A stretch of DNA of 64,000 bases from contig JACRCV010000007.1 in NCBI GenBank assembly GCA_016218825.1, positions 1 through 64,000 of the forward strand. The letters are read 5' to 3'. The notes beneath the pieces are model-generated. The model saw nothing but the letters and a program-made list of their open reading frames with translations, was not told the DNA's origin and did no database searches. Positions 1 through 64,000 of the stretch are shown here, in pieces; positions within the stretch are counted from its first letter, which is position 1, and the number at the start of each line of letters is the position of its first letter. The DNA comes from Deltaproteobacteria bacterium. Lineage in GTDB: Bacteria; Myxococcota; XYA12-FULL-58-9. The position numbers and the translations under genes were made by a program.

Positions 1-205
1 AGTTTCAACCCATCGGTAACCTGCTTCGTCCACGATGTACCCGGTTTTCGCATCTGCGCTCCCGCCAGCCACATCGCGGCCGGCCAACGGAGACAGATCA
101 CAAACGGACGATGTGTAGAAGAGTCAGGGTGGGGCGAGGGGCGGTCGATGCGGCAAGGGCCTGTTTGGCCGGCCTCGCGGCTGTGGTACCGTGGTGGGGC
201 CTGTG
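1..205. other. Left edge, no convincing gene
   Basis: No convincing gene lies upstream of the first kinase. The stretch looks less GC-rich than the rest of the window. Short open frames run through it on both strands, but none has a start codon with a ribosome site or a recognisable motif. A TGTAGAAG string near 113-120 could be a weak -10 box for the kinase gene. I found no matching -35. Confidence 0.3.
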
Positions 206-49068: not shown

Positions 49069-50997
49069 ATGCCACCGACCTTTCGTACTGATCTCGTCTG
49101 CTCGCGCGAAGAGCAACAGGGCGTCGTCTTCTATCGGATCGACGACCCCAAGACCCAGACGAGCTTCCGGCTGTACGAGATCGAGTATCTGATCGCGAAG
49201 AAGCTGGACGGCGCGCGACCCCTCCCGGAGGTCATCGCCGCGGTCAAGAAGGACTTCAACTTCGACATCACCGAGGCGGATCTGCAGCGCTTCGTCAACC
49301 AGCTCGACTCGATGGGCTTCTTGATCGGCGGCCGCGGTGACGCCGCGGGAGCGGCGCTGCCCGAGCCCGACACCAAGATCATGGCGCGCGGCAAGAAGCC
49401 TGACGACGGGCTGGAGATCCTCGACCTGGCGGCGCCGAAGGCAGAGGGCGGCGACGCCGACAAGGCCGAGCTCGATCGGCTGCTGCGCTCCGCGTTCTTG
49501 CACGTCAAGCAGGGCTACATCGTCCACGCCCGCGACTATTTCCTGGCGGCCAAGGAGCTCAAGCCGCACGACGAGCGCCTACAGAAGATCGTCAACCATC
49601 TCGAGATCATCGGCGACGCCTCCGGTCCGGCCGAGGTCGAGTATCTGTGGAACCAGGCGCGGACCTTGTTCCCGGAGATGGCGGCCGAGGTCGGCCCGGG
49701 GATCGACGCCCGCTCCGGCGACCCGGGCGAGGAGCTCAGCCAAGCGGGCGGCATGGCGCTGACCGGGAGCGAAGACCTGCGCTCCCGGGTCATCTGGACC
49801 CTGGTGCTGCTCGTGGTGCTGGTCGTCGGCGTCGGCGGGCTGGTGTGGGTGATCAAGGCGGCGCGGATCTTCGAGAAGGCGGCCCGGGTCAAGGTGACGA
49901 CGGTCCGGGCGGATCGCATCCCGATCTTCTATCCCAAGCCGGCGGTGAGCGTCCGACCGCAACAGGAGGGCTGGTTGACCGCGCCCTCGGCCGGTCGGGT
50001 GGCGACGGTGCAGGTCACGGCCGGCGCCCGGGTCGAGATGGGCAGCGTCCTGATGACGCTGGACTTGGCGCCGCCCATCGCGAAGCAGCTCGAGGACGCG
50101 AAGACCAACGTCAAGACCGCCAACGAGGCCCTCGAGAAGGCGACGCTGAAGCTCAACCAGCTGCTCGCGGAGCGCGAGGTCGTCGAGAGCGAGCGCAGCA
50201 CCGCCGAGGATCGCCTCAAGGAGCTGCGGCCGAAGAGCTTGCTGCGCCAGGGCGGCGTCTCGAAGCGCGACCTGGAGAAATGGAAGCGGGTCAAGGTGAC
50301 GGCCAACAAGAAGCTCACCCAGCTGGCGAAGAACGAGCGCGGCCCGAAGGCCGCCAAGGCCAAGGCCGAGAAGCAACGCGACGCCGCCGCCGGGCGCCTC
50401 GCGGCCCTGGAGAAGCGAATCGCCAACAAGCTGCTGCGCGCCCCCTACGCCGGCCTGGTGGTGGCGGTGAAACCGTCGGTCGGCACGACGGTCGCTGCCG
50501 GTGACCAGGCGATCCTGTTTCGCGACCCGTCCGCCGTGGTGTTGAGCTTCGAGGTCGCGACCGGTGCGGCGCTCCAGGTCGGTGGCGAGACTCACGTCGC
50601 GGTGGCCAACGGCAAGCCGAGCCGCGCCAAGGTCGCCGCGGTGGCCCCGCTGGCCGACGGCGCCAAGGTCGAGATTCGAGTCCCCGATCCCTCGGGCGGC
50701 TTCCTCGACATCGATCCGGGGAAGTTTCGCCTGGTGCGCGAGTTCGCCGATCCGGCGTTTCGGGTCGCGACCACCGCCTTGGTCGAGGACGAGCGCGGCG
50801 TCCACGTCGTCGTCGCGATGCAGAAGCGGGCGCTGGAGCGCGAGGTCAGCATTCTCGAGCAGGACGCGGCCGCGGCGGTGATCCGCAGCAGCTCGAGCTC
50901 GTTGCGCGACGGCGACCAGATCGTGATCGCCCGCCTCGACGACGGCGACATCAAGTCGATCGCCGACGGCTCGTTCCTCGAGGTCGAAGCCGAGTAG
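49069..50997 (+). CDS. PqqD-like domain fused to HlyD-type membrane fusion protein
   Basis: 642 aa. Residues about 15-90 resemble a PqqD/RRE-like winged fold (FRLYEIEYLIAKKLDGA, then LQRFVNQLDSMGFLIGG), the peptide-recognition domain of RiPP systems. A helical TPR-like region (about 130-210) and one membrane helix (about 242-264) follow. The periplasmic part is HlyD-like: a split lipoyl domain (GWLTAPSAGRVATVQVTAGA and LLRAPYAGLVVAVKPSVGTT), a long coiled-coil hairpin (about 345-460) and a beta-barrel domain. Such fusions elsewhere accompany M50 peptidases or peptide exporters, but no peptidase, ABC transporter or outer-membrane factor is adjacent. It is expressed alone behind a promoter with an operator-like palindrome. 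Confidence 0.78.
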   Translation: MPPTFRTDLVCSREEQQGVVFYRIDDPKTQTSFRLYEIEYLIAKKLDGARPLPEVIAAVKKDFNFDITEADLQRFVNQLDSMGFLIGGRGDAAGAALPEPDTKIMARGKKPDDGLEILDLAAPKAEGGDADKAELDRLLRSAFLHVKQGYIVHARDYFLAAKELKPHDERLQKIVNHLEIIGDASGPAEVEYLWNQARTLFPEMAAEVGPGIDARSGDPGEELSQAGGMALTGSEDLRSRVIWTLVLLVVLVVGVGGLVWVIKAARIFEKAARVKVTTVRADRIPIFYPKPAVSVRPQQEGWLTAPSAGRVATVQVTAGARVEMGSVLMTLDLAPPIAKQLEDAKTNVKTANEALEKATLKLNQLLAEREVVESERSTAEDRLKELRPKSLLRQGGVSKRDLEKWKRVKVTANKKLTQLAKNERGPKAAKAKAEKQRDAAAGRLAALEKRIANKLLRAPYAGLVVAVKPSVGTTVAAGDQAILFRDPSAVVLSFEVATGAALQVGGETHVAVANGKPSRAKVAAVAPLADGAKVEIRVPDPSGGFLDIDPGKFRLVREFADPAFRVATTALVEDERGVHVVVAMQKRALEREVSILEQDAAAAVIRSSSSSLRDGDQIVIARLDDGDIKSIADGSFLEVEAE

Positions 50998-51011
50998 CGC
51001 TTCCGCCTGCA

Positions 51012-51104
51012 TTTGATTCCCGCGCGGCCGATGCGGCCGCGCTCCCCACCCCCACCCTTGAATACTTCCGCGCCGCGCCGGATCCCGCCCCCGGGTGGGG
51101 CGGG
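51012..51104 (+). repeat. Two-stem-loop dispersed repeat, copy C
   Basis: It lies between convergent genes. It starts TTTGATTCCC, then stem GCGCGGCCG (51022-51030) with CGGCCGCGC (51034-51042), then CTCCCCACCCCCACCC, a spacer, and stem CCCGCCCC (51084-51091) with GGGGCGGG (51097-51104). The order and flanking motifs match the copies at 62486 and 62611, which lie on the opposite strand. The rest of 50998-51250 has no gene that I can see. Confidence 0.65.
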
Positions 51105-51250
51105 CACGACGATCGCAATGGTGGCTGGGCCGGTTTCGCCGTGAGCTGGACGTTCCGCGCCCTTTCTTGCGTTCCTCGCGCTCGCGGCTACGCCTCCGCG
51201 CTGCGGTACCGGCGGGCGCGACCGTATGGTCGAGTCAAGGCGACAAGGCT

Positions 51251-51949
51251 CTAGTGTTGCCCGCCGACCTTGCCGAGATCAACCGGCTCACCGATCCCGG
51301 GCCCGAGGCCGCCGGGGCGGGGCTTGAGCACGCCGCCGGGCTGGCCGAGATCGGCGGCGTCGGTGGGGATGGGCAGCGCCACCCCGGTGAGGATGCGCTC
51401 GATCGACTCCGCGAGCGGGTGGAAGAGCTCGGTCCGGCCCGCCGCGGTGATCGCGACGCCGCGGCCGTTCAATACGAAGATCGCCGAGATCTGGGTGATG
51501 GCGATCGGCGCCTGACCCGGGGTCAGCATCGCGTACTCGTGGAGGACGTGGTAGCCGGGGCGCATCCCGACCTTCAACGGCCGCTTCTCGACCTGGGTGA
51601 TGCGGATCGAGCCGCCGCTCTCGAGCCGTGCTATCTCCCGCAGGTTCTCGGTGAGGAACTCCTCCAGGTTCGTCGGTCGGGTCTTCAGGGTCTCGAGGTA
51701 GACGTCGATGCGCGGCGACATCGGCACCGGGCTCTCGCGAACCAGCCGGAACACGACCCCGCCCTTGGCCAGGTCTTCCGTCTTGATGGTGGGATCGACA
51801 GTCCAACCCGAGAGCTTCGGCAGCTCGATCTGCAGCTCCGGAACCTTGAAGATCGGGCCGGCGCTCGAGTCGTTGCCGCTGCAAGCCGCATTCGCCCCCG
51901 ACAACAACAGCAGAACGGGGAGGCGGAACGCTGTCTGGCGGTAACCCAT
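51251..51949 (-). CDS. Lipoprotein, unknown function
   Basis: 232 aa. The signal peptide ends in NAAC, with Cys23 as probable lipid site. The mature part has an alpha/beta pattern with LSGWTVDPTIKTEDLAKGGV and ILTGVALPIP near the end, like small periplasmic proteins with a domain for periplasmic stability, but no named family is certain. The tail is Gly/Pro-rich. It lies 15 nt downstream of the 51965 gene and probably shares its transcript. Confidence 0.6.
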   Translation of the reverse strand: MGYRQTAFRLPVLLLLSGANAACSGNDSSAGPIFKVPELQIELPKLSGWTVDPTIKTEDLAKGGVVFRLVRESPVPMSPRIDVYLETLKTRPTNLEEFLTENLREIARLESGGSIRITQVEKRPLKVGMRPGYHVLHEYAMLTPGQAPIAITQISAIFVLNGRGVAITAAGRTELFHPLAESIERILTGVALPIPTDAADLGQPGGVLKPRPGGLGPGIGEPVDLGKVGGQH

Positions 51950-51964
51950 CGGCCCTCGGCGGCG

Positions 51965-52504
51965 CTAGCGACGCAATAGCTTGCGACCGGCCGCGACCTT
52001 CTTCTTGTTCTTCTTGCGGCGCGCCGCGACGCGAGGTTTGGCCGGGCTGAGCGCCTCCAGCGCCACGGCCGCGCGGTTCGAGTGCTCGGTCTTCGGGGCG
52101 CCGCCGAACAACCCCGGATAGCCGGCCGCGTGCGCCAAGAGCTGCATCATCCGCGCGATGTGGACCAGGTGCAGGTAGAAGGCGGTCATGTCGTTGGCGT
52201 CGGCCACCCGGTCCAGACAGTCGTTCACGAAGCTCTGCAGCTCGGGGTAGTCGTCGCTGAAGGCGCCGAGGCGCTCGGCGAGCTGGCGGCGGTCGCGCGG
52301 CGGAAAGCTCTGGGTGCCGCTCACCAGCGGATTGGCGATGATGACCAGGGAGCGCACCTTCAACGCGATCCGCATGACCCGGTGCGCCGACACCCCGGCG
52401 CGATGCAGCATGCCGGCGACGTCGATCGCGGCGTCGACCACCTCGCGCTTGAGCCGTGGGCGGTTCTTGCGGCTGTACCAACCGCCCTCCAGATAGCGTG
52501 TCAT
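51965..52504 (-). CDS. Helical protein with basic C-terminus, unknown function
   Basis: 179 aa, mostly helical, no membrane segment or signal peptide. No family is recognised. The C-terminus is very basic (RRKKNKKKVAAGRKLLRR), which suggests nucleic-acid or membrane-surface contact. The ATG has no ribosome site; a possible promoter ends 7 nt before it, so the mRNA may be leaderless. First gene of a two-gene operon with the lipoprotein, divergent from the NYN gene. Confidence 0.6.
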   Translation of the reverse strand: MTRYLEGGWYSRKNRPRLKREVVDAAIDVAGMLHRAGVSAHRVMRIALKVRSLVIIANPLVSGTQSFPPRDRRQLAERLGAFSDDYPELQSFVNDCLDRVADANDMTAFYLHLVHIARMMQLLAHAAGYPGLFGGAPKTEHSNRAAVALEALSPAKPRVAARRKKNKKKVAAGRKLLRR

Positions 52505-52511
52505 CGCGGCG

Positions 52512-52541
52512 ACGTTAGCCCCAACTCGCGGCTCTTCGCAA
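52512..52541 (-). promoter_or_regulatory. Candidate promoter of helical-protein/lipoprotein operon
   Basis: On the minus strand, TTGCGA (52541-52536), 18 nt, TAACGT (52517-52512), then 7 nt to the ATG at 52504. Confidence 0.35.
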
Positions 52542-52593
52542 GACCGCGCTACGAATTGCGGCGCGCGCCCGAGGCTGGCACCCGCCGCGCTGT

Positions 52594-52599
52594 GATAGA
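52594..52599 (+). promoter_or_regulatory. -10 box of NYN gene, leaderless arrangement
   Basis: TAGAGT followed by 8 nt and the GTG start at 52608. No clear -35. Confidence 0.35.
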
Positions 52600-52607
52600 G
52601 TCGACCG

Positions 52608-54086
52608 GTGACCGCGGACAGCTCCAACCTCGGGACCGACGGCGGCGCCGCAGTGTGCGCGCGCTTGCGGCGCTTGTTCGAGCCGGCGGCGCTCGGCATC
52701 GTAATGATCGGCGTCCTCGACCGCCGCCGGGCGGTGGCGCTCTTGGTGGCCGAGACCGGCGTGAGCCCGGAGAGCCTGGCGACGACGCCGCGCGAAGAGC
52801 TGATCGCCAAGCTGGTGCGCGGCTTCGCCGAGGACGATCGGCTGGCGCTGGCGGTCGTCAGCGAGCTCGACTTTGGGGCGCGCACCGAACGCTCGCTGGT
52901 CGCGTCCTTGCCCGCGCCCGAGGTCGCGCAGGCGGTGGCGGCGCGCGAGTTCCTGCGCCTGCGCCGGCACGGGGCGAAGCTGGTGTGGGCGCTGGCGCAA
53001 GATGAGCGCCAGGCGGTGGTCACGCTCGCGGGCGGCGTGTTGCGAGCCTACGTCGACCAGTTTGGCCGGCTGGAGCGGGCCCGCGACAAGGTGCGGCAGC
53101 TGGGCGGCGAGGCCGAGCTCGAGGAGTTCGACTCGGTCTATCGCGACGCGGCGGAGCGCGCGCTGGAGCTGGAAGAAGAGTTCTCGGTGGTCGAGAAGGA
53201 GCGCGCCCGGCTGCTCGCCGAGATCGGCAAGCGCGAGCTGGAGCTGCGGGCGGAGAGCGAGCGGCGCGAGCGGCTCGCCGCGGAGATCGCCGGGTTGAAG
53301 CAAGCCCGCGAGCCCGCGGTGTCACCGCCGGCGGCGAAAGGGGCGTCGGCAGAAGGCGGCGAGACCCTGCGGCGCCTGCAAAAGAGCCTGGCGGCGGCGA
53401 CGCGCGAGTGCGAGGCGCTCAAGGCCAAGGCCGCTGGCGCCGCCGAGCTCGCGGCGGAGAACGCGCGGCTGCGGGCGACCATCGAGTCGCTGCGCGAGCT
53501 GCGCGCCAAGGAGAAGGCGGTGGTCCGGCCGCTGTTGCACAGCGAGACCACGGTGCCGGCGCCGCTCGTCGCGCCACCGCCCGGGCACAAGGGCAAGCGC
53601 GGTGAAGGCGGCGACGCCCGCCTCGGCGTCTTCTTGGACGTGGCGAACCTCTCGGGGGCTGCCCGGCGGCTCTTCGGTCGCGCCATCGACTTTGGCCGTT
53701 TGTTGGATCTGGCGCGCGCCGGACGTCAGCTCAGTGAGGCGCGAGCATACGTGATCGACAAGGGCGGGCGGGGCTTCGACGCCTTCGCGACCTCGCTGCG
53801 GAAGAGCGGCTTCAAGGTCCTGGCGAAGAAGCCCAAGACCTTCGAGGACGGCACGGTCAAGGCCGACTGGGACGTCGGCCTGGTGGTGGACGTGCTCGGC
53901 ACGGTGGGCAAGCTCGACGCGGTGTTGTTGGGATCGGGCGACGGCGACTTCGTGCCGCTCGTCAACGCCCTGAAGCAGCAAGGGGTCAGAGTCGAGATCG
54001 CGGCGTTCGCGGCGCGCGCCGCGGCCGAGCTCATGAAGAGCGCCGATCGGGTGCTGGCGCTCGATGCGTCGGTGCTCGAAGACTAG
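52608..54086 (+). CDS. Coiled-coil NYN-domain (PIN-like) protein
   Basis: 492 aa. The N-terminal helical half (about 1-160) is unrecognised; a long coiled coil spans about 165-315. The C-terminal NYN/LabA-DUF88 domain (about 340-490) carries the acidic residues of PIN-like nucleases: LGVFLDVANLSGA (first Asp), KADWDVGLVVDVLG and LLGSGDGDFVPLV. Such domains cleave RNA with Mg2+. The coiled coil suggests oligomers or an attachment partner. GTG 52608 is the first start after a -10-like TAGAGT. Cytoplasmic; it converges on two tiny genes. Confidence 0.78.
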   Translation: MTADSSNLGTDGGAAVCARLRRLFEPAALGIVMIGVLDRRRAVALLVAETGVSPESLATTPREELIAKLVRGFAEDDRLALAVVSELDFGARTERSLVASLPAPEVAQAVAAREFLRLRRHGAKLVWALAQDERQAVVTLAGGVLRAYVDQFGRLERARDKVRQLGGEAELEEFDSVYRDAAERALELEEEFSVVEKERARLLAEIGKRELELRAESERRERLAAEIAGLKQAREPAVSPPAAKGASAEGGETLRRLQKSLAAATRECEALKAKAAGAAELAAENARLRATIESLRELRAKEKAVVRPLLHSETTVPAPLVAPPPGHKGKRGEGGDARLGVFLDVANLSGAARRLFGRAIDFGRLLDLARAGRQLSEARAYVIDKGGRGFDAFATSLRKSGFKVLAKKPKTFEDGTVKADWDVGLVVDVLGTVGKLDAVLLGSGDGDFVPLVNALKQQGVRVEIAAFAARAAAELMKSADRVLALDASVLED

Positions 54087-54093
54087 GTCGGTC

Positions 54094-54273
54094 TCAACCG
54101 TCGCGGCCCGGCCCGCTGCTGCTCTCGGTCAAGAGGTCGAGCGGGTCGAAGCCGTCGAAGAACGACGCCAGCTCGTCGGCGTCGAAGGTGACCTTCATCT
54201 CGCTCTCCCAGTCGGGCTCGGCCTCGGGAGCGGCGGTCACCGGCTGGGCGCTATCGCTTGGAATCGACGCCAT
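54094..54273 (-). CDS. Small acidic protein, unknown function
   Basis: 59 aa. An acidic peptide with DWESEMKVTFDADELASFFD and a Ser/Gly-rich end; no family is recognised. The ATG has AGGGGG 6 nt upstream and lies inside the 3' end of the 54251 gene, overlapping it by 23 nt in another frame. The good ribosome site and coupled arrangement support it as a real gene. It could be a partner or regulator of the 65-aa protein. Confidence 0.45.
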   Translation of the reverse strand: MASIPSDSAQPVTAAPEAEPDWESEMKVTFDADELASFFDGFDPLDLLTESSSGPGRDG

Positions 54274-54448
54274 CGGGGTCCCCCTGCAAATCTGCGCCGA
54301 CCATGCGGGCCATCGCCTCGTCGACCAGCCGGTCGACGAGCGCCCAGCGGCCGTCCCGCGTCTGTGGCGGGTGCTCGAAGAGCTGTTGCGTCGCCCGGTC
54401 TAAGTGCTCGATTCCTAAGAGGAAAGCCCTGCCGTTGAAACACACCAT
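54251..54448 (-). CDS. Small protein, unknown function
   Basis: 65 aa, starting MVCFNGRAFLLGIEHLDRAT and ending VGADLQGDPDGVDSKR; helical, no membrane segment. A strong GGAGGGTG lies just upstream of ATG 54448. It follows a terminator-like hairpin after the PEGA lipoprotein gene. A possible own promoter is TTGACG, 17 nt, TAAACG between about 54505 and 54533 on the minus strand. First of two overlapping small genes. Confidence 0.5.
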   Translation of the reverse strand: MVCFNGRAFLLGIEHLDRATQQLFEHPPQTRDGRWALVDRLVDEAMARMVGADLQGDPDGVDSKR

Positions 54449-54535
54449 GACACCCTCCGAGTTTGGTCGACCTTCGCGCAAAGGCTGACCATGGCCCTAC
54501 GTTTACAACGACCGATCGATCGCGTCAAAATTTCC

Positions 54536-54550
54536 GCCACCCGCGGTGGC
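54536..54550 (-). terminator. Terminator-like hairpin after PEGA lipoprotein gene
   Basis: On the minus strand, GCCACC, GCG, GGTGGC (54550-54536) directly after the stop codon, followed by GGAAATTTT. A short stem with a weak U-tract, but well placed. Confidence 0.5.
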
Positions 54551-55306
54551 TCACCGGCGGATGAGGAGGCTCTGGTCGTCGCCCTCGGCGGTGCTGCGGC
54601 GCAGGCGCACGACACCGTTGTGCAGCTTGAAGCCGGTGCCGGGTTTCAACGCCGCGCCGTCCTTGGTCCAGGTGGCGTCGTCGTTGGGGATCGAGAGGGT
54701 CAGCAGGTCGGCGCCGCCGACCATGTAGTGCAGGCTCATCGCGCCGACCGCGAGCTCGCCGGCGACGCGCTCGAGGCGGACCTGGCGTCCGGCGACGTTC
54801 ACCCGATCCAGCTGCACCGGGGCCTCGGGGGTCGGCGCCAACGTCAGCACGATCGGGCGCACCCCGTCCGGGAGCGCCGGCGCCGCCGACGGCGGTGGCT
54901 CGGGCGATCGGGCGCGGGGCGGTGGTGGCGTCCGCGTCGGGGCCGGCTCGTTCGGTCGCGGCCGCAAGGCCACCGGGACGGTGACCACCTTGTTCGCCTC
55001 CAGGGTGACGGGCAACGCCACCGGGTAGTAGCCCATCGCGCGGACCTCCAGGCGGTGGGTGCCGGCGGCAAGGGTGCGGCTGACGAAGGGCGACACCGAG
55101 GCGACGCGCACCTCGTCGAGGAGGACGGTGATGCCGTCTTGCGGCTCGACCTCGACGCGCAGACCGGCGGTCCCCGGCGACTCGGCCGGGGTCTCATCGC
55201 CGCGCAGTTTGCGCCGCAGGTCCTTGATCGCCTCGCAGCCTGTGCCGAGCGCCACGGACGCCAGAACCAGGGCCGCGAGCAGTGCCTGGGTCGACGTACG
55301 GCTCAC
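54551..55306 (-). CDS. PEGA-domain lipoprotein
   Basis: 251 aa. Lipobox LGTGC with Cys24. A PEGA domain covers about 45-115 (LRVEVEPQDGITVLLDEVRV, then AGTHRLEVRAMGYYPV), a small beta-domain common in surface proteins of Myxococcota. A Pro-rich linker (about 120-145) leads to a C-terminal beta-rich part (SLHYMVGGADLLTLSIPNDD). GTG 55306 is chosen because it gives a normal signal peptide; upstream in-frame residues are not signal-like. It is followed by a terminator-like hairpin. Confidence 0.78.
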   Translation of the reverse strand: MSRTSTQALLAALVLASVALGTGCEAIKDLRRKLRGDETPAESPGTAGLRVEVEPQDGITVLLDEVRVASVSPFVSRTLAAGTHRLEVRAMGYYPVALPVTLEANKVVTVPVALRPRPNEPAPTRTPPPPRARSPEPPPSAAPALPDGVRPIVLTLAPTPEAPVQLDRVNVAGRQVRLERVAGELAVGAMSLHYMVGGADLLTLSIPNDDATWTKDGAALKPGTGFKLHNGVVRLRRSTAEGDDQSLLIRR

Positions 55307-55447
55307 GGGCCGATTGTAGCGGCCGGCGCACCTTTGTCCACCTTTTGGCCGTGGCCGCGGGAGGTTGACCGGGGCCGCCGACAAGGTTAGCTAGCGCCAG
55401 CATTCCCGGGGAAGGGGCGGTCGCCTGCGGGCGGCCGGCAGCTGCGC

Positions 55448-56680
55448 ATGGACGAGCACGAGTTCATCTACGACTGGAACCACCTGAAGCGTGGCGGGCC
55501 GCTCTCCGGCCGGCGCTTCGAGGTCCTAGACGAAACCCTGCGCGACGGCGTCCAGTCGCCGTCCGCGACCGATCCGACGATCGCGGAGAAGATCGAGCTG
55601 TTGCACCTCATCGAGGCGGTCGGGATCCAGGCGGCGTCGCTCGGGTTGCCGGGGGCCGGCGAGCGGGCCTACGAGCACGCGCTGGCCCTGGCCCGGGCGA
55701 TCGGCGGCCAGCGCCTGCGCTTGAAGCCTACCTGCGCGGCGCGCACCACCACCAAGGACATCGTCCCCATCGCCCGCATCGTCCAGGCGACCGGCGTCGG
55801 CATCGAGGTCTACACCTTCATCGGCTCGAGCCCGATCCGCCTCTACACCCAGGACTGGACCGTCGACCTGTTGTTGCACCACATCGAAGAGGCGGTGCGC
55901 TTCGCGCTCCAAGAGGGGCTCGAGGTCTGCGTGGTCCTCGAGGACACGACGCGCTCCAAGCCCCAGGTGCTCGAGCGGATCTTCCGCCACGCGATCGACC
56001 TCGGCGCCAAACGGCTGTGCATCGCCGACACCGTCGGCTACTCGACCCCCGACGGCGTGCACAACATCGTCCGCTTCGTCACCAGCATCATCCAGTCCAC
56101 CGGGGCGCCGGTGCGTCTGGACTGGCACGGGCACAACGACCGCGGCTTGGCGGTGGCGAACGCGATCTACGCCCTGGAGTACGGCGTCGACCGGGTGCAC
56201 GGCACCGCGCTGGGGATGGGCGAGCGGGTCGGCAACGCCGCCCTCGACCAGATCCTGGTGAACCTCAAGCTCCTCGACGCCTGGAGCGCCGATCTCAAGG
56301 CGCTCGGGCGCTACTGCGAGGCGGTGTCGAAGGCCTGCGGCTTCCCGATCCCCGCGAACTACCCGATGTCGGGGCGGGACGCGTTCCGCACCGGCACCGG
56401 GGTGCACGCGGCGGCGATCCTCAAGGCCAAGAAGAAGGGCGACGACTACCTCGCGGATCGGATCTACTCGGCGGTGCCGGCGAGCCTGTTCGGCCGGCAC
56501 CAGGAGGTCGAGATCAGCCAGGTGAGCGGCCACGCCAACGTCGTCTACTGGCTCGAAGCCCGCCAGATCCCCCACGACGAGGCGTTGGTCACCGCGATCC
56601 TCGCGGTCGCGAAGCAGGCGAACGGCGTGCTCGGTGAAGCCGAGGTCCTCGGCGTCGTGCGCCGGCATCAGGGCGTTTGA
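55448..56680 (+). CDS. 2-isopropylmalate/homocitrate synthase-family enzyme
   Basis: 410 aa. A DRE-TIM metallolyase (HMGL-like) that would condense acetyl-CoA with a 2-oxo acid. The catalytic DETLRDGVQSP, the metal-binding LDWHGHNDRGLAVAN and GMGERVGNAALD are all present. The C-terminal part includes FRTGTGVHAAAIL, typical for this family. There is no LeuA regulatory (LeuA_dimer) domain, so the length is closer to NifV/LeuA2-type enzymes, which lack it or keep only a short linker. The substrate cannot be decided from sequence. ATG 55448 is the only good start. Confidence 0.88.
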   Translation: MDEHEFIYDWNHLKRGGPLSGRRFEVLDETLRDGVQSPSATDPTIAEKIELLHLIEAVGIQAASLGLPGAGERAYEHALALARAIGGQRLRLKPTCAARTTTKDIVPIARIVQATGVGIEVYTFIGSSPIRLYTQDWTVDLLLHHIEEAVRFALQEGLEVCVVLEDTTRSKPQVLERIFRHAIDLGAKRLCIADTVGYSTPDGVHNIVRFVTSIIQSTGAPVRLDWHGHNDRGLAVANAIYALEYGVDRVHGTALGMGERVGNAALDQILVNLKLLDAWSADLKALGRYCEAVSKACGFPIPANYPMSGRDAFRTGTGVHAAAILKAKKKGDDYLADRIYSAVPASLFGRHQEVEISQVSGHANVVYWLEARQIPHDEALVTAILAVAKQANGVLGEAEVLGVVRRHQGV

Positions 56681-56693
56681 TCGCCGGTTCAGC

Positions 56694-59600
56694 TCAGCTC
56701 GGTCGTCGGGCGTCGTGTGGCGTCGCGCTCTTCTCGAAGCGCAGCACGTTGTGCGCGAACACCTCCATGCGCGCCATGATGCTCGGCGGGTACGGCTGGC
56801 CGTCGTTCTCGAGCGCGATCACCGGGTAGCCGCGCGCCTTGGCCCACGGGGCGTAGACGCCCTCGATCAGCCGGCCGGGCAGGCAGCCGAAGGGGGCGAT
56901 GATCGCCACCCCGGAGTAGCCGTCTCCCATCGCCATCCGGCCGACCGCGGGCGACACCGTGGCCTCGCTCTCGAGGTCGGGCTCGACGAAGATCTTGCGC
57001 CCCTCGTTGATCGCGGTGTCCATGTCGTCGGGGGCCTCGGGCACGAAGCCGGTGTGCATCAAGGCGTCCTTGAACTTCTTCTCGACGTTGTTCTTCCACC
57101 ACTCCTCGATGTGGTACCAGCCCTCCTCCTTGAGGCCGCCGTCCTTGAGCACCTTCAGCCAGCCGTCGCGCTTCTTGCGCGCGTCCATCAGGAACTTGCG
57201 GGCGTAGTCGGTGTAGTGGAACCACTCCGAGACCCCGGTGACCTTGGGGAAGATCCCCTTGCGGATCAGGAACTCGGAGAGCTCGGCGACCGAGAAGTTG
57301 TCGCGCCGCACGTAGATCTCGCCGACCACGAGCACCTTGCGGATGTCCTCGACGGTGCAGCGCTTCGGCAGCTGCGCGAGCTCCAGCCCGGCGCGCGCCA
57401 ACGCCGCCTCGAACGCCGCCGGGCTCTCTTTGAGGCCGGCGATGACGTTTTGCCACACGCGGTTGAAGACCTGGGTCGCGACCTCGGGGTCTTCTGCGAG
57501 CAGGCGGATGCCGGTGCGGATGTCGGTGAAGTAGTCGCCGGCCAAGATCGAGCGCCAGACGTCCTGGGTGAAGTTCGGGCCGAACTCGCGGTAAGAGTTC
57601 TCCGAGCCGCCCACCAGCACGACGACGTTCTCCCAGCCGAGATCGCGGAACACCTGATCGTAGAACACGTGGTACTGGCCGGTGCGGCACGGGCCCAACG
57701 TCGACGGCACGAAGACCAGGTAGATCTCGCCGGGGCGGTTCGGCGGGTTCGCGTCGAAGAAGCTCAAGATCGAGCCCAACACCAACAGCGCCGGGATGCA
57801 CTCCTTGCCGGAGGCGACGTCGCGCGCCAGCTGCGTCGAGCGGGCGTCGGGGAGCGGCATGTACACCGTGCGGATCCCCTGGCGCTCGGACGCCACCGTC
57901 ATCGCCTCGGCGACCAGATCCCCCATCGACGGCCACACCAGCCGCACCCGGCGGTCGCGGATGTCGATGCGCTCGCCGGTCTCCCGATCGAGGACGTCGC
58001 AGAACTCGCCCTTCATCGCCACGCTGTAACGCCGCGGCCGCTGCGCCACCGGCGGCGGCAGCGCGCTCTTCCGGTAGCTCTCGACGATGTCGAGGAAGGC
58101 CTCGACCCGGGTGTCGAGGCCGGCGTCGGCGGTGTGCGAGTCGATCTCGAGCACCAGGTAGGGCTTCTGCTCCATCAGCCAGCGGACGTAGTGCAGCATG
58201 AAGGAGTCCGGGGCGCAGGAGAAGTTGCTGATCCAGGTGAGGTAGAGGTTCGAGATCTCCTTCACCTTGCGCGCGGCGCGCATGTTCTGTTGCCCGTAGT
58301 ACCAGTACATGTTGGGGACCGACGGGTCGTCGGGCTCGTAGATCATGTCGAAGGGCACCACCGCGACCCCCTGCGACGTGATCTTGCGCGGGATCCCCAT
58401 GTTGGCGTCGCGGGTGAAGGCGTTGTAAGGCCGGCCCAAGAGCGCGACGTAGATCCGATCCGGGTTCTGCCGCATCTCGGCGAGCAGGCGCTCGCCCACC
58501 GCGCGGTAGGCGGCGAGGAACTCCTGGTAGCGGCCGATCGCGGTGTCATAGGCGCGCTCGCCGTCCTTGGCCTTGAAGCCCAGGCGCACCGCGAGCTCGG
58601 CGAACTGCGCCTTGCTCGACTGCCAGCCGTGCTTGAACGACACCACCGGGCGGAGGATGCGCTCGTCGTCGAGGCCGAACGCCTGCCGGGCGAAGAAGGG
58701 CAGGCCTTGGGTCAGCGGGCAGACGCAGGCGTGCACCGGCTCCTCTTCCATCGACGGCATGTCGCGGAAGTGCGGCAAGAACAGGTAGTCGGCGCCGCGG
58801 TTCAAGATGTCCTGGACCGCGCCGTGCGCGATCTCGGCCGGGAAGCAGTAGCTGCTCTCCTGCTTCGCGATCCCCTCGGGTACGATCTCCTGCGACAGCT
58901 CGGCTCGCACTCCCAACGAGTGGAAGAACCAGGAGTAGAACGGCCACAGCGAGTGCACCGAGAACGCCAGCGGCACGCCGACCTTCTTGTCGGTCTTCGC
59001 GACCAGGGTCTCGGGCTTGGGCGCGAAATCGGTGAACAACATCTGATGCCGGAGCTCGGTGTAGTCGATCGCCTGCTCGCGGTTGACGCGGCGCTTCTTG
59101 CGGGCGTTGGTGAACTTGGAGCAGCGACCGCCGAAGGGATACTTCTTGCCGCCGACCTCGAGGCGGCGCACCTCGCAGCGGTTCTCGCACGAGTTGCAGG
59201 TGAAGCTCTCTTTGTAGGTGATCGCCTTCGCCGCCAGCGCCTCGAGCGCGAAGCTCGACTTGGCGAGCGACCCTTCGCTCTCCTTGATCTTCGCGAGGCG
59301 CGCGACCCCGAAGGCGCCCATCAGCTCGGGGTCCGGCGGCACGGTGATCTTGCGGCCGGTGATCTTCGCGAACGCCAGCGGCACCGCGGGGTTCTTGGCG
59401 ACGCCGCCCTGGAGCGTGATGTGGTCGCCGATGCTGCGGTTGCCGACCACGCGGTTGACGTAGTTCAGCACGATCGAGATCACCAGGCCGGCGACGATGT
59501 CCTCGCGCGCCGCGCCCTGCTGGATGGCCTTGCGGATGTCGGAGTTGATGAACGCCGAGCAGTGCTCGCCGAACTTCAACGGCGCCTTGGCGGCGAGGGC

Positions 59601-60968
59601 GATCGGGCCGATCTCGTGCGCCGCGGCGATGCTCAGGTCGCCGGCCGCCGACTCCTCGAGGAACGAGCCGGTGCCCGCCGAGCAGGCCTCGTTCATCGCG
59701 TAGTCGATCGGCACGCCGTTGTTGATCAGGACGTACTTGGCGTCCTGGCCGCCGATCTCGAAGATGGTGTCGACCGCGGGCTCGAAGTAGGTGGTGCCGA
59801 CGGTGTGCGCGATGATCTCGTTGTAGACCCCGGCGGTCTCCAAGAACACGCCCAAGAGCTCGCGCGACGAGCCGGTGGTCGCGACCAACACGATCTTGAC
59901 CCGGGTGCCGCCGAGCTGTCGTAGCACCGCCTCGAGGCACTCGCGCACCGCGGTGACCGGATCGCCGTGGGTGCGGCCGTAGTGCGAGGCCACCACCTCG
60001 AGGGTGTCGTAGCGCACCAGCGCGACCTTGGTGGTCGTCGAGCCGCCGTCGACGCCGAGGATGTACTCGGCGTCCGGATCGAGCTTGCCGCGGATCGACG
60101 GCACGTAGGTGACCTGACTCATCACCTCGGCGAGCGGCGGGAAAGTCCGGTACGAGGACTGGCTGTTGTGCGCCAACAGCTCGCCCACGGACGGCAGCGT
60201 CTTGCCCTGTTCTCTCGCCAGCATCGCGGCCCCGAAGGCCTCGAAGTAGGGGGCCTGCTCCGGGACGACGAACGACAGCTGCGGCCAGGCGTCCTTCAAG
60301 AAGCCGACCAGGAAGCGGTTCTGGGTCACGCCGCCGATCAGCACGATCTCGCCCCGATCGATCTTCGCTTTGGTGAGGAACTCCGAGGCCTTGTCGGCCA
60401 TGACCTTCGACAGCGACAGCGCGATGTCGCCCTTGGTCGCCTCGCCCTTGTTGAGCCGGTGGGTGCAGTCCGACTTCATGAAGACCGAGCAGCGCGCCGA
60501 GAGCTTGTGCACCCGGCAGCCCTCGGCCGCCCGGTCGATGTCGACGATCTTCAGGTTCATGCGCCCGAGCTGCTGGCGGAAGAACTCGCCGGTGCCGGAG
60601 GCGCACTTGTTGCCGGCGTAGTTGCTGATGATCCGGCCGTCGGCGTCGAGGCGGTAGACCACCAGGTCCTCGCCGCCCATCGAGATCACCGCGCGCGGCC
60701 GAAGGCTCAGCGCCGCGAGCCCGGCCTCGACCGCCACCGGTGCGATCACCTCGGGCAGCGCGACGCGATGCCGCCCCTCGGTCCCGGTCACCATCGCTCG
60801 CGCTTGCGGCGCGCGACCGAGGTCCAACGCGGCGTAAAGCTCCGCGAAGGCCGCCTGCAGGTTGCCCTCGTGGGCGACCGCGGCGCTCTGCACCAGACTG
60901 TCGCCGGCGCGGAAGTACGCCTTGACGTTCGTCGAGCCGACATCGAGTCCAAGGAACGCGTCGTTCAT
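56694..60968 (-). CDS. Giant fused acyl-CoA dehydratase activase-type protein (two BadF/HgdC domains plus dehydratase-like C-terminal part)
   Basis: 1,424 aa. Two ASKHA ATPase domains: about 1-270 (FLGLDVGSTNVKAYF, NKCASGTGEFF, SARCSVFMKSDC) and about 305-600 (LGVDGGSTTTKVALV, FEIGGQDAKYVL, NEACSAGTGSFL). Each has the family's paired cluster cysteines. A Cys-rich stretch (CNSCENRC near 615) starts the DUF2229-like region, followed by a 2-hydroxyacyl-CoA dehydratase-like C-terminal half with further Cys motifs (SSYCFPAEIAHGAV, VHACVCPL, SNFSCAPDSFM). Such fusions are widespread in anaerobes and some myxobacteria; their substrate is largely unknown. It starts at ATG with only weak GGTGG upstream. 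It does not adjoin the other dehydratase operon, so this window has two separate ATP-driven radical systems. Confidence 0.88.
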   Translation of the reverse strand: MNDAFLGLDVGSTNVKAYFRAGDSLVQSAAVAHEGNLQAAFAELYAALDLGRAPQARAMVTGTEGRHRVALPEVIAPVAVEAGLAALSLRPRAVISMGGEDLVVYRLDADGRIISNYAGNKCASGTGEFFRQQLGRMNLKIVDIDRAAEGCRVHKLSARCSVFMKSDCTHRLNKGEATKGDIALSLSKVMADKASEFLTKAKIDRGEIVLIGGVTQNRFLVGFLKDAWPQLSFVVPEQAPYFEAFGAAMLAREQGKTLPSVGELLAHNSQSSYRTFPPLAEVMSQVTYVPSIRGKLDPDAEYILGVDGGSTTTKVALVRYDTLEVVASHYGRTHGDPVTAVRECLEAVLRQLGGTRVKIVLVATTGSSRELLGVFLETAGVYNEIIAHTVGTTYFEPAVDTIFEIGGQDAKYVLINNGVPIDYAMNEACSAGTGSFLEESAAGDLSIAAAHEIGPIALAAKAPLKFGEHCSAFINSDIRKAIQQGAAREDIVAGLVISIVLNYVNRVVGNRSIGDHITLQGGVAKNPAVPLAFAKITGRKITVPPDPELMGAFGVARLAKIKESEGSLAKSSFALEALAAKAITYKESFTCNSCENRCEVRRLEVGGKKYPFGGRCSKFTNARKKRRVNREQAIDYTELRHQMLFTDFAPKPETLVAKTDKKVGVPLAFSVHSLWPFYSWFFHSLGVRAELSQEIVPEGIAKQESSYCFPAEIAHGAVQDILNRGADYLFLPHFRDMPSMEEEPVHACVCPLTQGLPFFARQAFGLDDERILRPVVSFKHGWQSSKAQFAELAVRLGFKAKDGERAYDTAIGRYQEFLAAYRAVGERLLAEMRQNPDRIYVALLGRPYNAFTRDANMGIPRKITSQGVAVVPFDMIYEPDDPSVPNMYWYYGQQNMRAARKVKEISNLYLTWISNFSCAPDSFMLHYVRWLMEQKPYLVLEIDSHTADAGLDTRVEAFLDIVESYRKSALPPPVAQRPRRYSVAMKGEFCDVLDRETGERIDIRDRRVRLVWPSMGDLVAEAMTVASERQGIRTVYMPLPDARSTQLARDVASGKECIPALLVLGSILSFFDANPPNRPGEIYLVFVPSTLGPCRTGQYHVFYDQVFRDLGWENVVVLVGGSENSYREFGPNFTQDVWRSILAGDYFTDIRTGIRLLAEDPEVATQVFNRVWQNVIAGLKESPAAFEAALARAGLELAQLPKRCTVEDIRKVLVVGEIYVRRDNFSVAELSEFLIRKGIFPKVTGVSEWFHYTDYARKFLMDARKKRDGWLKVLKDGGLKEEGWYHIEEWWKNNVEKKFKDALMHTGFVPEAPDDMDTAINEGRKIFVEPDLESEATVSPAVGRMAMGDGYSGVAIIAPFGCLPGRLIEGVYAPWAKARGYPVIALENDGQPYPPSIMARMEVFAHNVLRFEKSATPHDARRPS

Positions 60969-61042
60969 GCTGCCACCGATGGTTGAAGCCGGAGGACGAG
61001 CTGCCCCGCCCGCTCTCTATGCTATGCGGGTCGCACCTTACC

Positions 61043-61831
61043 CTACATCGGGGTCACTTGGGAACCTCGCCAGAGGTGATACGCGGAGGCAAGGGGCGTG
61101 ACGCAAGGGGGGCCGTCGGCGGCCCAGATTTCGGGAGGGCGCCTGCCGTCCGGGGGGACGACGACGACGGTCGCGGCGCGGGTGCCGTAGGCGCCGAGGT
61201 GGACGCACGGCGCGCGGCTCGCCGGGGGGCGGTCCGGCTCGGCGGCGGACGTCTGGTCCGGGATCACGTGCGAGGCCAGCAGGTGCTGCAGGTGGTCGAC
61301 CAGGTCGGGGCCAAAGAGACGCCCGATCGGCATCAACGCCTCCTGGACCCACTCCGCCTTGCTGGAGATGCTTCCAAGTGGCCGATTTTCCATAACATGC
61401 AGCCCAGCCTCGAGCTCCGTCACCACCGGGCCCCGAGCGTTCGTCATGTCGACGTAGAACAGCGACCGCGGATCGCCGACCAGGAGCCAGCACGGGTTGA
61501 ACTCCCCCGGCCGCGTCGAGGCCTCGAGGGCCTTGACGCCGTCCGCGGCGCTGTCCTTTGCGGCGAGGAGGAGCGGCAAGAAGCCGCGCGATCGGCGACC
61601 GTGCGGGCTCGGACGGCCGGGCATGTTCGTGAGCCCCGCCACGACCCCGCGCTCGTTCACCGCGAGCCAGGTGCCGCCCGCCTGTTGGTCACGGCCGCCG
61701 AGGATCCGGGGTCGCTGGCGTTGCAGCACCGTCAGCGGCGTCGCCGGACGCGCGTGCAGCTCGTCGCGGTTGGCGGCGACGATCAACGGGGCGTCGGGGT
61801 GGACGCGAAACGCGACGGCGAGCAGGCACAC
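61043..61831 (-). CDS. NRDE family protein (TANGO2-like)
   Basis: 262 aa, normal length. The family name motif is present as AANRDELHARP. Other typical pieces are ILGGRDQQAGGTWLAVNERG, VVAGLTNMPG and a C-terminal YGTRAATVVVV. The Cys at position 2 could serve as an N-terminal nucleophile, as in related Ntn-fold proteins; the biochemical role of the family is not settled (human TANGO2 is linked to haem or lipid handling). GTG 61831 puts that Cys second. It lies between the giant activase and the LPP20-like lipoprotein genes, 21 nt after the latter in the minus-strand direction. Confidence 0.87.
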   Translation of the reverse strand: MCLLAVAFRVHPDAPLIVAANRDELHARPATPLTVLQRQRPRILGGRDQQAGGTWLAVNERGVVAGLTNMPGRPSPHGRRSRGFLPLLLAAKDSAADGVKALEASTRPGEFNPCWLLVGDPRSLFYVDMTNARGPVVTELEAGLHVMENRPLGSISSKAEWVQEALMPIGRLFGPDLVDHLQHLLASHVIPDQTSAAEPDRPPASRAPCVHLGAYGTRAATVVVVPPDGRRPPEIWAADGPPCVTPLASAYHLWRGSQVTPM

Positions 61832-61852
61832 GTGGCAGACCCGGGCGCCGGT

Positions 61853-62620
61853 CTAAGGTACGGCGCCGGCGCCCGTGGGTGGTACGTCGGCGGCGCTCGG
61901 CTGGCCGGGGACCCAACCCTCCGGCACCGCGACCGCGACCTTCACGAAGGTCGCCTTGCTCCTGCGATCGACGAAGACCTCGGCGATCTCGGCGCCGCTC
62001 TGGCGCTCGCTGTGGAGCCAGCGGCCAAGCTCGGCGCGGGCACGGTTCTCGGCGGTGCTGCGCGCCAGCGCCGGGTTCTTGATGCGCTCGGCCCGGCCCA
62101 CCGTCTCGAGGTAGTGCTTGCCGTCGCGCTCGACCACCGCGGCCAGGGTCTTGGCCCACGCCGGCGCCTTGGCCGGCACCGGATCCGGCGACAGCGCCAG
62201 CGCTCCGAGCCCCTGCCAGCCTGCGGGCAGCACCAGCCCGGCCGGGAGCCCCGCGGGGAGCCCGGCGGGGATCGGTCCGGGATCTCCCGTCGGTGCGGGC
62301 GGGTCGCCCGGCGTCGTCGGGGTCGCCGCCAGCTCGACGTTGTTCGCCGCCGGCGTCGTGCCGGGTCCGACCGCGGGCGCGCCACCGGCGTCCGTCGGGC
62401 TCGGGGTCGGCTCGCAGCCTGGGAGCGCGGCCAACAGGAGACCGAGGAAGACCCAGGACCACGTGCGGGAGAATGCGAGCTCGGTCCCCGCCCCACCCGG
62501 GGGAGGGGAGTCAGGGGTGGGGGTGGGGAGCGCCGCGGCAACCGGGGCGCGGGAATCAAAGGAGGACGCACGGGGTCGATGGCGCGCAGCACAGGGGCGG
62601 ATCTGCGCCCCTCGCCCCAC
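61853..62620 (-). CDS. LPP20-like lipoprotein with repeat-derived N-terminus
   Basis: The mature protein is clear: a hydrophobic stretch ends in lipobox AALPGC, then an Ala/Pro/Thr-rich linker and an LPP20-like domain (ARSTAENRARAELGRWL, then FVKVAVAVPEGW). The start is not: no ATG, GTG or TTG lies in frame just before the signal sequence (SRTWSWVFLGLLLAAL). The nearest in-frame GTG (62620) and ATG (62716) lie in or beyond a dispersed DNA repeat, giving an odd extension of 68 or 100 residues before the Cys. I give GTG 62620 as a placeholder. Either a non-standard start is used or repeat insertion has damaged the 5' end. Confidence 0.6.
   Translation of the reverse strand: MGRGAQIRPCAARHRPRASSFDSRAPVAAALPTPTPDSPPPGGAGTELAFSRTWSWVFLGLLLAALPGCEPTPSPTDAGGAPAVGPGTTPAANNVELAATPTTPGDPPAPTGDPGPIPAGLPAGLPAGLVLPAGWQGLGALALSPDPVPAKAPAWAKTLAAVVERDGKHYLETVGRAERIKNPALARSTAENRARAELGRWLHSERQSGAEIAEVFVDRRSKATFVKVAVAVPEGWVPGQPSAADVPPTGAGAVP
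62486..62560 (-). repeat. Two-stem-loop dispersed repeat, copy A
   Basis: On the plus strand it reads stem CCCCGCCCC (62486-62494) with GGGGAGGGG (62500-62508, one mismatch), GGTGGGGGTGGGGAG, stem GCGCCGCGG (62530-62538) with CCGGGGCGC (62542-62550, one mismatch), then GGGAATCAAA. Same order as copies B and C when read on the minus strand. Confidence 0.65.
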
Positions 62621-62685
62621 TCGGGGGCGAGGGGTTGGGGGAGTGGGGGTGGGGAGCGCCGCGGCAACCGCGGCGCGGGAATCAC
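62611..62685 (-). repeat. Two-stem-loop dispersed repeat, copy B
   Basis: On the plus strand it reads stem CTCGCCCC (62611-62618) with GGGGCGAG (62624-62631), GAGTGGGGGTGGGGAG, perfect stem GCGCCGCGG (62656-62664) with CCGCGGCGC (62668-62676), then GGGAATCAC. It is the same direction as copy A, about 125 bp apart. Confidence 0.65.
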
Positions 62686-62728
62686 AGGAGGACGACAAGG
62701 GTGTAGAGACGCGCATCGCAAGGCTCCT

Positions 62729-64000
62729 TCAGTGAACGTCGAAGATCCACGGCATCCTGAGCATCGGGCCGGCGCCGACCTCGGAGGCGAGGCGCGCGCC
62801 GCTCTTGGACCAGGCGAGGACGCGGGCGGACTCGTCGAGGATCTCCGACAGCAACGCCAGCGGGCTCTTCGGCTTCGGGAAGACCTGCAGGCTGACCTCG
62901 GCGTCGGCGCCGACGCCGATCAAGCCCTTGAGCGCGGTCAGCGCCGCCTCGCTGTCGCCGACCTCGTCGACGAGCCCGAGGCGCTTCGCGGCGCGCCCCG
63001 ACCAGACGCGGCCGTGCGCGACCTTGTCCACCGCGTCGTGCGCCAGGTTACGGCCGGCCGCGGTCTTGGTGACGAAGTCCTCGTAGATCCGATCGAGGAA
63101 GGTGCCCATCCGCGCCTTGCGGGCCGCCGCCGGCGGGTCGAGCTGCGAGAAGAAGTCGGCGTTGGGAGTGGCGTCGTAGCTGTCGAAGGTCACCCCGAGC
63201 CAGTGCTCGAAGAACGCGCGCGCCCCCAGGCTGACCGCGAACACGCCGATGCTGCCGGTGATCGTCGCCGACTCCGCGAAGATCCGGTCGGCGCCGATCG
63301 CCATGAAGTAGCCGCCCGACGCCGCGAGCGAGCCCATCGACACCACCACCGGGACGCCGGCGGCGCGGGTCACCTCGATCTCGCGGCGCACCAGATCGGA
63401 GGCGACGTAGGAGCCACCGGGGCTGTTGATGCGGAACAGGACCCCTTTGACCTCGGCCTGGCGGGCGTCGCGGAACGCCTGGGTCAGGGTGTCGGAGCCG
63501 GCGGTCGGCGAGTCACCGCCGCCGCTCTCGCCGCGCATGATCTCGCCGTCGGCGTAGATCAGCGCCACCTCGGGGCCGCGATGATGCAGCTGGCCGGAGG
63601 CCGCGTAGGCGCCGAGCTCGATGAGCGGCTGCTCGCGACCCGCCACCTTCTCGGCCTCGGCGAGCACGCTGTCGAAGTAGCCGAGCTGGTCGACGAGCCC
63701 CTTCTTCGCCGCCTCGTCGGCGGTGAACGGCCCGGCGGCGTACCACTCGGCGACGGTCTCGACCGGGACCTTGCGCCGGGTCGCGAGGTGCAGCGTCAGG
63801 TCCTCTTGAATGTCGTCGACCAGGGCGCGCAGCGCCTCCCGGTGCGGCGCGGTCATCTTCGACTCGGTCAGGCTGTTGGGGGCGTTCTTGAACTCGTAGC
63901 GCTTGTCGACGTGCACTTGCAGCCGCAAGCGCTCGAGCGTGCCCTTGAGAAACGGCACCTCGGCGCGCAGGCCGACCAGGTTCACGTCGCCCGGCGGGCT
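62729..64000 (-). CDS. sppA: Signal peptide peptidase SppA, 67K type (5' end beyond the window)
   Basis: At least 423 aa, cut by the window edge at its N-terminus. SppA is a membrane-bound serine/lysine protease that degrades cleaved signal peptides. The likely catalytic Lys is in YEFKNAPNSLTE and the Ser in SMGSLAASGGYFMA. RINSPGGSYVASDLV and ITGSIGVFAVSLG are typical of the second half. The two-half layout is the 67K type. It is upstream of the LPP20-like lipoprotein gene on the minus strand, separated by the dispersed repeats. Confidence 0.9.
   Translation of the reverse strand, partial: SPPGDVNLVGLRAEVPFLKGTLERLRLQVHVDKRYEFKNAPNSLTESKMTAPHREALRALVDDIQEDLTLHLATRRKVPVETVAEWYAAGPFTADEAAKKGLVDQLGYFDSVLAEAEKVAGREQPLIELGAYAASGQLHHRGPEVALIYADGEIMRGESGGGDSPTAGSDTLTQAFRDARQAEVKGVLFRINSPGGSYVASDLVRREIEVTRAAGVPVVVSMGSLAASGGYFMAIGADRIFAESATITGSIGVFAVSLGARAFFEHWLGVTFDSYDATPNADFFSQLDPPAAARKARMGTFLDRIYEDFVTKTAAGRNLAHDAVDKVAHGRVWSGRAAKRLGLVDEVGDSEAALTALKGLIGVGADAEVSLQVFPKPKSPLALLSEILDESARVLAWSKSGARLASEVGAGPMLRMPWIFDVH

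Follow-up and report, generated by a model that had tools for sequence, protein, structure and literature searches.

A lineage-specific family of hairpin-rich repeats at stop codons in a Myxococcota genome, probably miniature transposons

MITEPsy1 of Pseudomonas syringae, a 100-nt element that targets CTAG or YTAA (PMC3189936), resembles the repeat family described here in being about 100 bp long and gene-less, with terminal inverted repeats and insertion at CTAG. IS630/Tc1-mariner elements (ISY100, IS630; PMC2170065) have TA at both ends and a preference for CTAG in common with it; for IS630 that preference is stated in the title of Tenzen and Ohtsubo (1991), as cited in PMC2170065. The REP/BIME repeats and their RAYT transposases (PMC2817692, PMC3733652) share with it GC-rich covarying hairpins, an extragenic position, many copies and use as an IS target; REPs are described as tagged by GTAG (PMC3733652), and Nunvar et al. 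(PMC2817692) found RAYTs always flanked by two inverted REPs. Insertion of IS elements into REPs is described in PMC8450116 (ISPpu9) and attributed to Tobes and Pareja (2006), the repeat's hairpin serving as the IS target, as it does here.

We analysed a window of 64,000 bases, the first part of a 67,940-base contig in a 6.54-Mb Myxococcota assembly of 121 contigs. The original prediction placed in it three copies of a repeat with two stem-loops (51012-51104 on the plus strand, 62486-62560 and 62611-62685 on the minus strand), and all three are present there, with small corrections: the elements run past the proposed ends; the pairing of the 9-bp stem 1 is present, but the copy at 62486-62560 has one mismatch (GCGCCCCGG/CCGCGGCGC); and stem 2, put at about 8 bp, exists with a length of 8-11 bp (Table 1). 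Within two mismatches, CTCCCCACCCCCAC occurs five times in the window against 1.08 expected, a count that none of 100 shuffles reaches. The gene upstream of copy 1 (49069-50997) ends in a TAG (50995-50997) that is the left tip of this copy; its right tip is eroded. Next to it stands a type f element with the same tips and a different interior, whose right tip CTAG is the stop of a convergent gene (51251-51949, minus strand); this type-a and type-f pair exactly fills the gap between the two stops. Copy 2 sits 45 nt downstream of the stop of an SppA-like gene (62729-63985, minus strand).

Table 1. Copies of the repeat and associated features in the window.
Feature	Position	Strand	Remark
IS end, type D, tip CTGACTCTTCTACACATCGTC	1..127	-	Inserted in stem 2 of fourth copy; contig begins here
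Fourth, broken copy: stem 2 right arm, GGTGGGGCGAGGGGC	128..142	+	Directly after IS end
Copy 1, type a	50995..51116	+	BLAST match to another copy spans 50998-51116
Copy 1, GATTCCC, stem-loop 1 and conserved linker	51015..51055	+	
Copy 1, GATTCCC	51015-51021	+	
Copy 1, stem 1, GCGCGGCCG-ATG-CGGCCGCGC	51022-51042	+	
Copy 1, linker, TCCCCACCCCCAC	51043-51055	+	
Copy 1, stem-loop 2	51084..51104	+	
Type f element beside copy 1	51125..51254	+	90% identity over 125 bp to L228 copy
Copy 3, type a	62486..62580	-	Tandem with copy 2; score 77.8 bits
Copy 3, stem 2	62486-62508	-	
Copy 3, linker	62517-62529	-	
Copy 3, stem 1	62530-62550	-	
Copy 3, GATTCCC	62551-62557	-	
Copy 2, type b	62608..62706	-	Score 90.8 bits
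Copy 2, stem 2	62608-62634	-	
Copy 2, linker	62643-62655	-	
Copy 2, stem 1	62656-62676	-	
Copy 2, GATTCCC	62677-62683	-	

An intact copy is about 126-130 bp long and consists of imperfect terminal inverted repeats, two covarying hairpins and a conserved, C-rich, single-stranded linker. Young copies measure 128 bp, with inverted repeats C-TA-GACCGYTTTCG … CGAAARCGGTC-TA-G at their ends and the layout CTAGACCGTTTTCGCCTTCATCT-GATTCCC-stem 1-TCCCCACCCCCAC-spacer-stem 2-…GAAGACGGTCTAG; 13 bp of their tips pair, and a full copy folded as DNA has its tips paired (z -4.6). Old copies and those of type b pair imperfectly at the tips, and types b and e carry different, imperfect tips (in type e, CAGGGCAATCGAGTTCTCG … CGAGAACTCGATCGCCCTG). 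With two mismatches allowed, matches to the tip motif do not outnumber those to its reversed control, which indicates that many older tips have eroded. Subfamilies also differ by modules between the hairpins, extra modules being present in only some copies. Type f places type-a tips around another interior and has at least 12 copies by BLAST in the sampled DNA; a strict pattern for intact type f had no match genome-wide and is thus too strict. A nested module, 'GCCAACCTAGCGGGG...', was considered as an insertion, a view we rejected because linker sequence is replaced, which makes it a module swap. In about a dozen copies of type c (L089, L095, L100, L108, L123 and others), a module of about 130 bp, GCCAACCTAGCGGGGGGACC...GGTGCCCG, stands in place of the spacer that otherwise separates the linker from stem 2. 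Several copies (L083, L123, L227) lie next to a different repeat family, rich in 'CGCGAGCAGCGCAG...GGCCGACTCGA'.

The family is real, dispersed and lineage-specific. A strict pattern has 94 exact matches genome-wide, 47 per strand, against none for the reversed control, and a covariance model of the core, the search by which the original prediction proposed to look for further copies, finds at least 150 in the 6.5-Mb assembly, down to E = 5e-7. In the genomes of 58 relatives, its own included, a looser pattern gives 127 matches in its own genome, six in a same-genus genome and none in the 56 others; the covariance-model search of 22 other relatives returned no match at E <= 1e-4. The sister MAG of the same genus holds seven copies, each of which we read. 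When a genome collection was scanned with the strict pattern, the only match outside its own genome was in the MAG 'Myxococcota bacterium RA.bin128', in all likelihood the genome of the same genus (G001), and a search of viral contigs for the element gave no match. Copies of 128 bp that are 98-100% identical stand at six unlinked places (L127, L093, L189, L153, L136, L170), which shows recent spread and bears out the mobility that had been proposed.

The paired base changes noted among the first copies extend to the whole family. Across 142 distinct rows fitted to the covariance model, 95.7% of cells are paired and 18 of 19 pairs have changes on both sides, as do 306 cells; none of 500 shuffles reaches the observed covariation values, pairing falls to 44-69% when the partner is slid by 1-3 columns, and a smaller MAFFT alignment shows the same picture. 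The claim that structure is under selection holds only as far as the covariation is real; selection itself is not proven by it, since templated mutation in hairpins can also make matched changes. That the changes are mutational, arising from template switching in hairpins and gene conversion between copies rather than from selection on structure, is a possibility that we judge somewhat improbable. Most stems are perfect palindromes of few haplotypes, and chimeric copies and module swaps reveal recombination between copies, as such an origin would have it; against this, the sister species, whose stems and loops are different ones (for example GCGTCGCC-TAAAA-GGCGACGC), retains the pairing as well, with GATTCCC and most of the linker unchanged. 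A mutational origin would bear only on why the paired bases covary and would leave room for a MITE reading of the family. In stem 1, imperfect cells on the gene-sense strand comprise 14 A-C against 1 G-T in the model alignment (12 against 4 by direct reading), which argues against selection as a sense-strand RNA, and stem 2 has no clear bias between the two. The covariation may have its source in effects on the DNA itself or on the opposite strand, or in templated mutation. A cmscan of 20 copy-holding loci reported only tRNA and group II introns, with no Rfam family for the element.

A young copy (C21:6115-6242) lies between two convergent genes that the sister genome (G001, C45) carries without it: the C-terminus of the first gene is near-identical (EWVALVVAQG-stop versus EWAALVLGD-stop in the sister), the stop of the second is CTAGTC in both species, and about 11 nt separate the two stops in the sister. 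At a second site (C54:16449), neither the sister nor a second genus has an element. The base outside the TA varies between young copies, being CTAG in most and also TTAG, GTAC and CTAT, so that a TA duplication, which fits most young copies, accounts for them better than a 4-bp CTAG duplication, which fits about half; with the sister only about 70% identical in nucleotide sequence, the duplication is not readable base by base.

To place the copies relative to genes, we ran a home-made codon model as gene caller over the 1.22 Mb that surrounds them. Counting copies at gene 3' ends, as the original prediction had suggested, confirms that location: in the 100 copies that have an upstream gene running towards them, GATTCCC lies a median of 20 nt, and most often 19-20 nt, beyond the stop. 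As a rule, the tip of the element itself provides this stop, a TAG, and at distances of 12-26 nt it is TAG in 48 of 63 cases against a background of 41% (p = 6e-8). That background, TAG as 41% of the called stops in the sampled 1.22 Mb, seems high given a G+C content of about 70%. Where both neighbours of a copy were called, convergent flanks are enriched (50 of 106, against 67 of 365 gaps of at least 100 bp; p = 9e-9) and divergent flanks are scarce (11 of 106 against 120 of 365), a contrast that is conservative because the background gaps include those that hold copies. The genome has fourfold fewer CTAG sites than expected (361 against 1448), and stop codons make up 159 of 359, a count that includes element tips; with CTAG already concentrated at stops, any element that targets it should have some tips that coincide with a stop. 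Five convergent gene pairs overlap by exactly 4 bp, and the proposed kind of target thus exists.

We interpret this gene-less, hairpin-rich family, with a probability of roughly 60%, as MITE-like non-autonomous transposons that insert at TA, preferring CTAG, and regenerate a TAG stop; these miniature transposons probably form a new family. Like MITEs, its members are short and non-coding, occur in many dispersed copies and end in terminal inverted repeats. A transposase supplied in trans, presumably IS630/Tc1-mariner-like or IS5-like, would act on the inverted repeats and insert the element at TA by cut-and-paste, with CTAG preferred. With CTAG rare and stop codons making up nearly half of such sites, insertions would fall on gene ends; as the element starts with G after the duplicated TA, its left tip would restore a TAG stop, and the right tip would by symmetry do the same where the neighbouring gene is convergent. 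An insertion that rebuilds the stop would be nearly harmless, and copies would pile up. The IS630 transposase (DDE_3) is absent from the bin, and an IS110 transposase, sought there as mover or guest, was not found either; a draft MAG may lack multi-copy IS contigs, and this one probably does, which makes the absence weak. The single DDE_Tnp_1 gene was rejected as the mover, being unrelated and without matching tips, and isolated tip matches, where we sought a longer autonomous relative, gave only other short elements or fragments. The family thus differs from IS630/Tc1-mariner elements in having no transposase gene inside it or found in the bin, and in tips that match no known IS630. MITEPsy1 differs in other respects: the copies described here are better matched by a TA duplication than by one of 4 bp, have a pair of covarying inner hairpins and a conserved linker, are far more numerous, and lie on stop codons, often those of both flanking genes.

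A terminator role is plausible, and the same hairpins could be explained as a host-selected bidirectional terminator or 3'-UTR module, spread by recombination, with transposition only historical. We consider that explanation unlikely. Copies do stand directly after stops and are enriched between convergent genes, and their strong hairpins are maintained by covariation in two species; however, no U-run (T-run in sequence) follows stem 2, the two clear sister sites examined lack a copy, near-identical young copies occur at unlinked loci, the gene-sense strand has no G-U excess (stem 1: 1 G-T against 14 A-C), and the position is equally accounted for by CTAG targeting and purifying selection. Transposition and termination might also meet in a gene-end cassette, a speculative and doubtful idea: both tips would rebuild TAG stops, the hairpins would be a putative bidirectional terminator, insertion on a CTAG that convergent genes share would be neutral or useful, and the family may by now be a common terminator between convergent genes and a safe harbour for other mobile elements.

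Foreign mobile elements are indeed found in the copies. In the sampled DNA, 26 junctions with seven different repeated IS-like ends (A-G) all abut or lie inside stem 2, and these ends occur nowhere else in those 1.22 Mb, a sample chosen for copies rather than a genome-wide rate. End D, which opens the window, has also entered stem 2 in copies on three other contigs (C70, C75 and C91), and breaks other contigs too. Ends A and D begin CTGACTCTT, and so does the Tn5/IS50 outer end. The last residues encoded beside end C weakly match the extreme end of an IS4-family model (E = 0.015) and, again weakly, the Tn5 dimerisation domain (E = 0.23); the IS-end peptides, searched against plasmids, had no match. 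End E, seen at three contig ends (L094, L096, L117), is followed by a start, MEHVGI, reminiscent of IS110, of which the bin has no gene. In two copies the linker contains a group II intron end (RF00029; L085 6504-6575, L168 5022-5093), oriented antisense to the element in the direction read, and in another copy the same intron end forms a third junction, which interrupts GATTCCC. Compared with ISPpu9 and REPs, as described in PMC8450116, the guests here comprise several different IS ends, some with Tn5/IS50-like tips, and group II introns.

The label first given to the repeat, a REP-like mobile element, is apt in that it is mobile, dispersed and hairpin-rich, but membership among REPs and linkage to a RAYT were not supported. 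That a RAYT mobilises the hairpins as single-stranded DNA seems to us distinctly improbable, even with the high copy number, extragenic position, modular arrays, short GC-rich covarying hairpins, three Y1_Tnp (RAYT-like) genes in the genome, and IS insertions into the hairpin of the kind reported for REPs by Tobes and Pareja (2006), in the form cited in PMC8450116. When a REP-associated transposase was looked for, none of the three Y1 genes proved to be flanked by a copy, and one is flanked by an unrelated inverted repeat; the element ends in terminal inverted repeats at TA rather than in a GTAG or CGTC tag, and its consensus GATTCCC-stem-TCCCC (GGGGA-stem on the opposite strand) has neither tag at the palindrome foot; type f has the same tips without these hairpins; and the length is about 128 bp, against 20-40 bp for REPs. 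Its hairpins and its attraction of IS elements make the element look like a REP, but it should not be classed as one. Inverted copies of GGGTCAGACCCxGACACTTGACAT (L192 391-425 and 1395-1430) flank a RAYT-like gene, like the TIR-flanked tyrosine transposases of PMC3733652. Exceedingly improbable are attC-like recombination sites of a dispersed integron, which would also be structured sites past stop codons interrupted by group II introns, as the copies are equally divided between strands (47 and 47), form no cassette arrays and have a consensus that, by reading, lacks the attC core sequence.

Read as MITE-like transposons, the family would be a clear case of a small transposon multiplying with little harm, through a tetranucleotide target that the genome largely confines to stops and through a tip that brings the remainder of the stop codon with it. 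The repeat is also one to which several unrelated mobile elements are drawn in their turn. The family accounts for many contig breaks in this MAG, and it is a caution to gene callers at convergent gene ends.
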